DNA of 51,533 bases. Origin: Succinatimonas hippei YIT 12066. Lineage in GTDB: Bacteria > Pseudomonadota > Gammaproteobacteria > Enterobacterales > Succinivibrionaceae. The DNA lies in the NCBI RefSeq assembly GCF_000188195.1, contig NZ_GL831071.1, positions 1-51,533 on the forward strand, given 5' to 3'. The notes under the pieces were generated by a model. That model was not told the DNA's origin. It saw nothing but the letters and a program-made list of their open reading frames with translations, and did no database searches. Of this stretch, positions 42,393 through 46,048 are shown in pieces (positions within the stretch are counted from its first letter, which is position 1; every line of letters starts with the position of its first letter). The position numbers and the translations under genes were made by a program.

Positions 42393-44363
42393 TTAGTGAA
42401 CATCAGTATATAAATCTATACGCATCTTGTATAAATCTTCACCAAGATCATTTAAAAGCTCTGTAAGTTTACGATTAGACAATAAAGCATTTCTCGTTGC
42501 ATTTAATTGTTTGATAAACAAAGCACAAGCCTGTAAATAAGGGCACCCTTCCGGAGCTTGAGAAGTTAACTCAATATCAATATCCACCGGTTTTGAGTTG
42601 GATATTGAGAACTTCGTTACTAAATTATGTTTCCAAGTTGGATCGGTAGCCAACAATTTAAAATCATCACTTATATATATAATCCACTTATTCGGATCCG
42701 CCTCATTTTGTTTTCTAATAGTGTACAGTAAAGCTGCAAAATCCGGCCCTGACGAATAACCGGCTTTTAATATTGTTTGATACCAAGGATCAATTTTCGC
42801 TACTTCATCTAAAAAATCATTGGGCTCTAGCAAGCGTTTTCCTTTAAAAGATAATTGATTTTGAAAACTTTGCTGATAAGCATTTTGAACCTGCTGTTTT
42901 GAGACTTTCGCGGGATTGCCGTCTTGAATTTCATTTACAACAGCATCTTCAACATCAGCATAAAACAACATATCCTGTGAATTATCAAGAGGCATATCAG
43001 TGTAATCTATTTCACTATCATCAACTGAAATTTCAGAATCTACTTGTTGGTTTTCAACTTCATCTGCCTCATTTAAAAGGATCTGTTGACCATGCTTATC
43101 TGATAAATCATTATTTTCTGAAACAGGCAAATTAGCTGCATCATTACCTTTTTTATAAACATCTTGCTCTTTAAAATATAAAGCACGTTTATCAATAGCA
43201 GCCTTTTGAATTTGCTTTAAAGCAAAATTCAAAATTTCTTCCTTAGAAGTTTCTTTTAGTAATTTTGTATTACTATAATTTTTCCCTTTAGGAATAATTA
43301 ATTTACAACCAAAATCCGAATCAGAAAAAATAATATCTTTGCAATTTAGCGGTGATTCATCATCAAAAGGATCACTTTCTATTGTTTTTAATGTATATTC
43401 GCAAGCTGCGCCATGATCTGTAAAAGAGTTTTCGCTCTTAATATGCTTTAAACTAAAATCATCTTGAGTATTTAAACCTTCATTTGAAAATTTTATTTCT
43501 TGTGCCTTTGCTATTATTTCACTCTTAAGTTTATTTTTCTGCTCTGCTTCATCGGGCGCATACTCAAGATCTTCATCAATAAAAAAGTTATCGCTATTTT
43601 TATCCGATTGTTTCTCTTCTAATGCTTCATTATTTACTGCACTTTGAGCTTCGCTTTCAGACTTACTTATAGAATCATGCGACACGTCCAAAAGAGATAA
43701 AGATCCATTGTCATCATCTTTATCTTCTAACTCTTGACTATTATCCAGATCTATTGGGGCCTCTTGAGGAGCAACTAAAGATAAGGCAGAAACATCTCCG
43801 CCTGAAAAAGGATCATTTAAAAATACCTCCTTATCCTCAACCATATTTTTTGCATAAGAAGATCTTGATTCTTGAGGTTGTACTGAACGTCCTAATTCGA
43901 TTCCTAAAGAGGTAATTTTAGCAAGCTGACCGGATATTCCATCTTCTTTAACATTGACTTCGTGATCTTGCATAATTTGCAAAGCTGAAGTTATATCCGT
44001 TAAATAATTGTTTATATCCTCAGCCAATGATAAAAAATCTTGATCTTTCTTATCAAAAGAAGAAGCACTAGTTATTTTTCCTAAACCTTCCTTAACTGAT
44101 AATACTCCACTGGTATTTTTACTTTCAGGCGATAATATTTCTGTCTCAGTTTGTGTTTTAGTAGAAGTTGATGTCTTAACTATCACATCAGATTTAAGAT
44201 CAGAATTTTCGGCAAGAAGCTTCAAAGAGGCAGTAACATTATCAAGATTTAGCTTATGATTTGCCGTAGGAGGTTTGGGCAAATTATCTACCTGATATTG
44301 TAAAGTTTTAGATTGTAATGATACGTAATCAGGTGTTATAGGATTGTCTTCACCTATCCATTC
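42393..44363 (-). CDS. dnaX: dnaX -1 frame: tau-specific linker and C-terminal domain
   Basis: This frame is open from the slippery tract (first codon GAA at 44363) to 42393, 656 residues. Its own first plausible start is only a TTG at 44282 with no good Shine-Dalgarno sequence, so it is best read as the downstream part of dnaX reached by frameshift. Most of it (about 500 residues) is an Asp/Glu/Ser/Lys-rich, probably disordered linker. The last ~130 residues resemble E. coli tau domain V, which binds polymerase alpha: DFLDEVAKIDPWYQTILKAG (compare DPWAAQVSQL), KWIIYISDDFKLL and KPVDIDIELTSQAPEGCPY. Joined to the gamma part it would give a protein of about 1026 residues against 643 in E. coli. 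Confidence 0.75.
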   Translation of the reverse strand, partial: EWIGEDNPITPDYVSLQSKTLQYQVDNLPKPPTANHKLNLDNVTASLKLLAENSDLKSDVIVKTSTSTKTQTETEILSPESKNTSGVLSVKEGLGKITSASSFDKKDQDFLSLAEDINNYLTDITSALQIMQDHEVNVKEDGISGQLAKITSLGIELGRSVQPQESRSSYAKNMVEDKEVFLNDPFSGGDVSALSLVAPQEAPIDLDNSQELEDKDDDNGSLSLLDVSHDSISKSESEAQSAVNNEALEEKQSDKNSDNFFIDEDLEYAPDEAEQKNKLKSEIIAKAQEIKFSNEGLNTQDDFSLKHIKSENSFTDHGAACEYTLKTIESDPFDDESPLNCKDIIFSDSDFGCKLIIPKGKNYSNTKLLKETSKEEILNFALKQIQKAAIDKRALYFKEQDVYKKGNDAANLPVSENNDLSDKHGQQILLNEADEVENQQVDSEISVDDSEIDYTDMPLDNSQDMLFYADVEDAVVNEIQDGNPAKVSKQQVQNAYQQSFQNQLSFKGKRLLEPNDFLDEVAKIDPWYQTILKAGYSSGPDFAALLYTIRKQNEADPNKWIIYISDDFKLLATDPTWKHNLVTKFSISNSKPVDIDIELTSQAPEGCPYLQACALFIKQLNATRNALLSNRKLTELLNDLGEDLYKMRIDLYTDVH

Positions 44364-44373
44364 TTTTTTTTTT
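44338..44373 (-). promoter_or_regulatory. dnaX frameshift site (A10-G slippery tract with downstream hairpin)
   Basis: On the minus strand ten A residues (44364-44373) are followed by G. In the zero frame codons are GAA AAA AAA AAG AAT GGA TAG. A -1 slip on A-AAA-AAG puts GAA TGG in frame and opens the tau frame. Five bases further a small hairpin ATAGG/CCTAT (44338-44357, ten-base loop) covers the gamma stop codon. The tract is also long enough for transcriptional slippage, where one extra A gives the same tau frame. Confidence 0.7.
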
Positions 44374-45472
44374 CAGGTGAAAAAGCCAAAAGGCGCAGGA
44401 GTGTCATCTCAAAAGCACTCTTACCGTCCGGAGCTGCAGAATACTCTTTAATACCCTCAAGAACAATCTGATAGTAAAGCTGTACACTTTCAGGTGAAAA
44501 AACTTTTGCGTAAGTATTTAAAATATCCTGTGGTAATGTAAATACGCCAAGAGCGTTATCACCAATCATCTGATACAAAGCCAAATCATGAAAGGCTATG
44601 GCAAGATCGTCCAATACTGCTTTAAAATTAGGTGAAATCTGAGCGAATTTAGATAAAACACCAGCTAAATTGGCCTCAGTTTCCGGAGCTAACAGATCAA
44701 TAATTTCAGCAATCAATCCATCCCCAGCAGTACCTAGCATGGTTATAACACTCTTTCTTTCAAGAGCCCCTGATCCTAATGCTATCGCTTGATCACACAA
44801 CGATAAGGCATCTCTCATACTCCCTTTAGCTGCTCGTGCAATCAACTGAGCTGCTTCTATTTCACAAGGAACACCTTCTGTTGCTAAAATCGAGATAATG
44901 CGATTTTTAATTTCATCAACGCTTAAAGCTTTAAGCTGAAACTGCAGACAGCGAGATAAAACCGTAGTAGGGATCTTATGAGGATCCGTAGTAGCCAAAA
45001 TAAATTTCACATACGAAGGCGGCTCTTCCAAAGTCTTAAGCAAAGCATTAAAACTATTGTTAGTAAGCATATGCACTTCGTCAATAATATAAATCTTATA
45101 TCTGCCAGTAAGAGGAGGATACTGAGTATTCTCGAGCAACTGACGAGTATCATCTACTTTAGTTTGAGAAGCTGCATCTATTTCTATAACATCAGGATAA
45201 TTTCCTGCAGCTATCGCTTTACAGGCATCACATTGCAGACAAGGTTTAGACGTTATTCCTGTTTCACATTCAAGGCTTTTAGCGATAATTCTGGCAATTG
45301 TAGTCTTACCGATACCGCGAGTTCCCGTTAAAAGATAAGCGTGATGAATACGCTTTGCGTCAATAGTATTGCACAAAGCACTTAAAACATGATCTTGCCC
45401 TACAACATCTGCAAAGGTTTGCGGACGATATTTACGCGCTAATGCCTGATATTCGCCTATCTTCTCTGACAT
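44354..45472 (-). CDS. dnaX: DNA polymerase III clamp-loader subunit, zero-frame gamma-length product
   Basis: A 372-residue AAA+ clamp-loader ATPase covering domains I-III. Walker A is LLTGTRGIGKTTIARII, four Cys in CETG...CLQCDAC form the zinc module, Walker B is YIIDEVHMLT and sensor/arginine-finger sequence is TTVLSRCLQFQLK. It ends FSPEKKKNG at a TAG just after an A10 tract. This is shorter than E. coli gamma (431), ending near the close of domain III. It starts three bases after the apt stop, the same apt-dnaX order as in E. coli, but ybaB and recR do not follow. Confidence 0.93.
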   Translation of the reverse strand: MSEKIGEYQALARKYRPQTFADVVGQDHVLSALCNTIDAKRIHHAYLLTGTRGIGKTTIARIIAKSLECETGITSKPCLQCDACKAIAAGNYPDVIEIDAASQTKVDDTRQLLENTQYPPLTGRYKIYIIDEVHMLTNNSFNALLKTLEEPPSYVKFILATTDPHKIPTTVLSRCLQFQLKALSVDEIKNRIISILATEGVPCEIEAAQLIARAAKGSMRDALSLCDQAIALGSGALERKSVITMLGTAGDGLIAEIIDLLAPETEANLAGVLSKFAQISPNFKAVLDDLAIAFHDLALYQMIGDNALGVFTLPQDILNTYAKVFSPESVQLYYQIVLEGIKEYSAAPDGKSAFEMTLLRLLAFSPEKKKNG

Positions 45473-45475
45473 AAA

Positions 45476-46048
45476 TCAGTGTCCCGGAAACTCTACTAGA
45501 GAAAAAGTTTCTATATTGTAATCATTTTTAATTTTAACAGCCCCGCCCAAATCAAAAAGCTCAATGACAAATGCAGTACAGACAATCTCAACATCAAAAT
45601 GTTTACACAAACGAATCATGGCTTCAGCAGTTCCACCGGTTGCCAACAAATCATCTACGATAAGCACTCTTTGTCCGCTTTGCAATGCATCCTCAGTTAT
45701 CTGCAAAGTACTTGTGCCGTACTCCAAATCATAGCTCTCTTCAAGCGTTGAACGCGGTAATTTACCTGGTTTTCTTGCCATAGCAAAACCGGCATGAAGG
45801 CGCTGGGCAAGAGGTGCTCCGAAAACAAAACCTCTAGCTTCGGCCGCAACAACCATATCTATTTTTTCGTCTTTAAATGCCTCATACAACATGTCTATAC
45901 TTAAAGCAAAAGCATCTTTATCTTGACATAACGAACTAACATCACGGAATAAAATTCCCGGTTTCGGAAAATCAGGAATATTTTTTATAGAGTTTTTCAG
46001 TTTTACAACTTTTGCTTCAAATTCTCTAATTCTTGCTTTATAAGACAT
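45476..46048 (-). CDS. apt: Adenine phosphoribosyltransferase
   Basis: A 190-residue purine-salvage enzyme making AMP from adenine and PRPP. IPDFPKPGILFRDVSSL, EARGFVFGAPLAQRL and the PRPP-binding loop VLIVDDLLATGGTAEAM are diagnostic. The N terminus has about ten extra residues compared with E. coli. First gene of the apt-dnaX operon, three bases upstream of dnaX. Confidence 0.96.
   Translation of the reverse strand: MSYKARIREFEAKVVKLKNSIKNIPDFPKPGILFRDVSSLCQDKDAFALSIDMLYEAFKDEKIDMVVAAEARGFVFGAPLAQRLHAGFAMARKPGKLPRSTLEESYDLEYGTSTLQITEDALQSGQRVLIVDDLLATGGTAEAMIRLCKHFDVEIVCTAFVIELFDLGGAVKIKNDYNIETFSLVEFPGH

Follow-up and report, generated by a model that had tools for sequence, protein, structure and literature searches.

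A dnaX gene with gamma in its template frame and tau behind an A10 tract: a family-wide layout that probably depends on RNA polymerase slippage

The window analyzed here, a 51,533-nt stretch of the Succinatimonas hippei YIT 12066 genome, contains a dnaX gene on the minus strand, which in our reading of the open reading frames starts with an ATG at position 45472 (Table 1). The order apt-dnaX is the same in E. coli based on genome comparison. The frame-0 product gave Pfam matches above cut-off to DNA_pol3_delta2 (PF13177), DNAX_ATPase_lid (PF22608), and DNA_pol3_gamma3 (PF12169); clamp-loader domains I-III are thus present, which places the product within DnaX. The minus-strand junction reads ...TTT TCA CCT GAA AAA AAA AAG AAT GGA TAG, with exactly ten A residues followed by a G at 44363, and this G-A10-G string is built by the last Glu and Lys codons of frame 0 (...AFSPE KKK NG, then stop). 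Immediately downstream, the motif TGG ATA GGT GAA closes two frames, as its TAG ends frame 0 and its TGA ends the +1 frame. Stops in both non-tau frames, at +7 and +11, therefore follow the tract, which is the layout of Thermus dnaX. Frame 0 closes just past the poly-A junction and tau lies in frame -1, as in the reversed dnaX genes of the type described by Antonov et al. (2013). Entry into the tau frame from the tract would take either a ribosomal -1 shift or one additional nucleotide in the mRNA, and would yield a protein of ~1026 aa. An earlier, sequence-only reading of this DNA had reported the A10-G tract and an open -1 frame; the tract is exactly as reported, whereas the open frame runs for 658 codons rather than the 656 given.

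Table 1. Features of the dnaX locus, in window coordinates
Feature	Position	Strand	Basis
apt (adenine phosphoribosyltransferase), directly upstream of dnaX	45476..46048	-	Name from sequence recognition and conserved position
gamma, the dnaX frame-0 ORF; 372 aa; AAA+ ATPase, lid, and domain III; ends EKKKNG, then stop	44354..45472	-	ORF translation and Pfam
A10 slippery tract; frame 0 reads GAA AAA AAA AAG	44364..44373	-	Sequence; tract at this position in 42 of the 53 family dnaX genes
Frame-0 stop TAG closing gamma, 7 nt past the tract	44354..44356	-	ORF reading
Third-frame (+1) stop TGA, 11 nt past the tract, overlapping the GGT-GAA codons that are conserved in the tau frame	44350..44352	-	
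tau-specific -1-frame ORF, 658 codons; stop at 42395-42393	42393..44370	-	ORF reading; purifying selection among relatives
C-terminal part of tau, a homologue of domain V in E. coli tau	42396..42953	-	Family profile (includes window sequence)

Within its own genome the tract is unusual. The assembly (2.3 Mb) has a single A10G string, A/T runs of at least 9 are rare (42 overlapping 9-mer matches), and among the A10/T10 runs inspected, the sole sense tract deep within a long ORF is that of dnaX. Sense A9 runs also occur inside open frames of 541 codons (L187) and 225 codons (L194), on contigs C19 and C34, and these are possible further slippage sites.

When the tau-specific segment of the window was searched alone, it matched no Pfam family and no PDB chain, probably because the tau linker evolves too fast for single-segment searches. 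We therefore refer to a profile built from the last 190 residues of 36 family proteins; 34 of these come from genes with the reversed layout (window included), and two have tau in frame 0. This profile matched E. coli tau at residues ~516-636 (E = 2e-11), in agreement with the earlier suggestion that the -1 frame ends in a sequence like tau domain V. The profile also picked up uninterrupted tau proteins from several other families. Where species pairs had diverged measurably, the -1 frame proved to be under purifying selection, with pN well below pS (e.g., 0.059 vs 0.284 and 0.122 vs 0.424), whereas in the two shifted frames of the same pairs this contrast is mostly lost or reversed. Because the domain V profile matches and the -1 frame is under purifying selection, we regard the downstream frame as a real tau; judged by these comparisons, it encodes the tau C-terminus with domain V.

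The same evidence bears on whether tau has been lost or split off in these genomes, the downstream ORF being either a decaying remnant or a protein translated from its own start. Two relatives, G060 and G063, do carry the tau C-terminus as a separate ORF; however, the -1 frame is elsewhere kept by purifying selection together with its domain V, and no conserved start codon lies near the break, so that we consider loss or splitting very unlikely. Separate initiation of tau was considered and rejected, as the first ATG, GTG, or TTG lies 10 to 83 codons from the break or does not occur in the first 150 codons. In the two exceptional genomes (G060, L232:1769-2097; G063, L233), dnaX is split after an inserted repeat, and a 492-aa gamma-like ORF is followed by a spacer and then by a 1565-aa ORF that carries tau domain V and has its own ribosome-binding-like site. 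The spacer is ~330 nt long in G060 and shorter in G063; that of G060 folds very strongly (~-135 kcal/mol), and many partial copies of it occur in the G060 genome.

We searched 57 genomes of the window's family, which gave 53 dnaX genes whose regions were then fetched and read. Defined as closure of frame 0 within 39 nt of the tract with tau in frame -1, the reversed layout was found in 42 of the 53 species and in 11 of the 14 genera of the family. Among these 42 genes the tract is A10 in 34, A9 in five, and A11, A13, and A7 in one each (the A7 in G078). Run length is thus 9-13 in 41 of the 42, which covers the conserved homopolymer of at least 8-9 A residues expected of transcriptional realignment, whereas E. 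coli has A6G. The sequence-only reading had proposed that the zero frame gives gamma and that tau needs slippage, and this is borne out across the family. Based on these comparisons, the slippage-dependent tau layout is a real and conserved property of the family.

Exceptions to the layout occur in several lineages. In genus g5 the tau frame is unbroken and no long tract is found at the equivalent place. In genus g11 (L169:1-5501, L170:1-5301) tau is also unbroken; an A10 lies ~85 codons beyond this place, and both other frames are closed by stops, which is a Thermus-like polarity with a displaced site inside the window's family. Tau is in frame 0 in G022, which has A12, and in G005, which has A8. 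On a tree of the gamma part, the family requires a minimum of four polarity changes.

A homopolymer error in sequencing or assembly, with 11 A residues and an unbroken tau frame in the true gene, had been the main alternative in the sequence-only reading; an uninterrupted tau frame in all close relatives would have spoken for it. Homopolymers are error-prone and this genome is a draft of 141 contigs; however, the A counts in relatives reveal the identical frame break in 42 of 53 independent species, including G066, a single-contig genome with the reversed layout, and an error is now extremely improbable. Phase variation at the DNA level, in which changes in the tract would turn tau on and off, is suggested by the A9, A11, A12, and A13 variants among relatives, and long A tracts mutate by slipped-strand mispairing. 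The constancy of A10 in 34 of the 42 reversed genes argues against it, as do the A9 and A13 variants, which preserve the frame relation via compensating bases. In addition, if tau is required as in E. coli, cells that switch it off should suffer severely, and we give phase variation hardly any credence.

The composition of the tract suggests what has been conserved. The codon before the Lys run varies among GAA, TTA, CAA, GTA, and TCA (Glu, Leu, Gln, Val, and Ser), and its third base is always A, whereas at conserved Lys columns elsewhere in gamma AAA is used in only 16-62% of species. Varied codons with a constant third base, together with low AAA usage elsewhere, argue that the tract is held as DNA and not as protein.

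Such a tract could be slipped on by either the ribosome or RNA polymerase, the two mechanisms that had been offered from the sequence. Programmed -1 ribosomal frameshifting on A_AAA_AAG would make tau from unaltered mRNA, as E. coli dnaX makes gamma. Of the 42 reversed genes, 27, the window's gene among them, contain this zero-frame heptamer, a sequence on which ribosomes can slip; the other 15 lack the AAG and with it the heptamer. The family also lacks the usual stimulators. No upstream Shine-Dalgarno stimulator was found in the family (median duplex -1.5 vs -7.4 kcal/mol in E. coli), nor any consistent downstream hairpin (across 45 genes, the best z per gene has a median of -1.1 even when the most favorable of three lengths is taken). 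The small hairpin that the sequence-only reading had pointed to downstream of the tract has an energy of -6 kcal/mol and a z of -0.1 against shuffles, which is chance level. A scan of the window and of relatives in the family gave no match to the Rfam DnaX element (RF00382), whereas E. coli scores 96.8 bits. Furthermore, runs of A9 or longer are conserved although a ribosomal site requires only A6G.

A separate line of evidence comes from the stop in the third frame. The GGT codon that creates this TGA is kept in 23 of the 25 species with Gly at that position, and among 48 invariant four-fold-degenerate columns of gamma, none is as strictly confined to one codon (highest 0.80). This constraint counts against a ribosomal slip because a -1 ribosomal mechanism needs no third-frame stop. 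In a synonymous-codon simulation, a nearby third-frame stop was not improbable per genome given the amino acids and codon use (genus-level Fisher p = 0.42); the signal lies in the conservation of the stop and not in its occurrence in individual genomes.

The direction of the shift gives a further test. By the criterion of Antonov et al. (PMC3711429), conflicting directions for one gene function indicate transcriptional slippage, whereas a single direction indicates ribosomal shifting. Every reversed gene in the window's family needs a -1 shift (or one added nucleotide), and this uniformity would by that criterion point to the ribosome. The other direction was seen only in f7, a second family of this order, in which we examined 30 dnaX genes. 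Each of the 30 carries an A9 or A10 tract close to the same position, and each non-tau frame is closed by a stop within 24 nt. Frame 0 holds tau in 26 of these genes; in three (G041, G087, G123) tau is held by frame -1, and in G231 by frame +1. In G231 (L259, genus g81), A9 is followed directly by TAG, the -1 frame is closed after 5 nt, and tau lies in +1, a layout that a -1 ribosomal shift could not serve; we found no description of this third polarity in the literature consulted. The conflicting directions in f7 make it a transcriptional case by the criterion of Antonov et al., and a minimum of two polarity changes is required among the ten f7 species on the gamma-part tree. Short frame-0 dnaX genes with A6-A8 runs near the break also occur in two further families, f18 (L223, L225) and f27 (L224), two of them in genomes of ~1 Mb.

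One possible reversed ribosomal case has been named, in Chlorobium phaeobacteroides (Atkins et al. 2016, PMC5009743), and together with the heptamer and the uniform -1 direction it is what speaks for ribosomal frameshifting in the window. Given the 15 genes without the AAG, the missing stimulators, the long conserved runs, the constrained third-frame stop, and the same layout with +1 polarity in G231, we regard ribosomal frameshifting as unlikely. The slip is most likely transcriptional, by RNA polymerase, as far as comparative data can indicate.

We consider it very probable that this is a functional dnaX in which the template frame gives gamma and programmed transcriptional realignment, with RNA polymerase slipping on A10, gives tau. 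Slippage would produce mRNAs with varied numbers of A residues. Those with 10 or 13 would be read to the TAG 7 nt beyond the tract and give gamma; those with 9 or 12 would be read to the TGA 11 nt beyond it and also give a gamma-like protein; and those with 11 or 8 would be read through the long frame and give tau of ~1026 aa. We infer that the slip is transcriptional in nature, that it is efficient enough to supply useful amounts of tau, and that the cell needs both products.

The sequence-only reading had deduced that the tau:gamma ratio is set by slippage in the opposite direction, which is formally right as an inference, and the comparative data suggest that polarity as such may be of little consequence, provided that RNA polymerase randomizes the tract length. 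We lean slightly toward a broader reading, in which template polarity is close to neutral in transcriptionally slipping dnaX genes because RNA polymerase mixes the frames anyway; selection would maintain at least nine A residues and the closure of both non-tau frames by stops, and the tau frame would drift among 0, -1, and +1. If so, f7 (26, 3, and 1 genes) and a 46-species clade of the window's family, reversed with separate returns to normal, would represent two natural experiments.

Reversed dnaX logic itself has been known since Antonov et al. 2013 (PMC3711429), a study cited by Atkins et al. 2016 (PMC5009743). Antonov et al. report 17 dnaX genes from 12 genera in which tau needs a frame transition, nine of them with 10 A residues, and propose transcriptional realignment. 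The window's gene resembles these in having gamma in frame 0 and tau after a -1 transition at poly-A. Their cases are scattered single genes, whereas here the layout holds for nearly a whole family of 14 genera; in addition, the third-frame stop is conserved, some members have lost A_AAA_AAG, and polarity has switched. We found no publication linking Succinivibrio with dnaX frameshifting, although the 12 genera may include the family. What appears to be new is that the arrangement is fixed family-wide and that it seems indifferent to the template frame.

Compared with E. coli dnaX (RF00382), the gene, its two products, and the lysine-run slip site are the same; however, E. coli has A6G with Shine-Dalgarno and hairpin stimulators and tau in frame 0, whereas here there is A10, no stimulators, and gamma in frame 0. 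In Thermus thermophilus, as described in PMC5009743 and PMC1088944, dnaX undergoes transcriptional slippage on A9, and each non-tau frame is closed by a stop close to the tract. The homopolymer of at least nine A residues and the paired stops are shared with the window, whereas in Thermus tau comes from the template frame and gamma from slippage. In Shigella mxiE, as here, the longer product requires slippage, which in mxiE is transcriptional (PMC1088944); unlike here, the run consists of Us and the product is a regulatory protein and not a replisome subunit.

In the output of gene callers, such dnaX genes will appear as truncated and their tau as a separate hypothetical protein. Comparative data of this kind offer a way to decide between transcriptional and ribosomal slippage ahead of experiments. 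Tau binds the polymerase and is essential in E. coli; across most of this bacterial family, a key replisome subunit appears to depend on an error-like slip of transcription.
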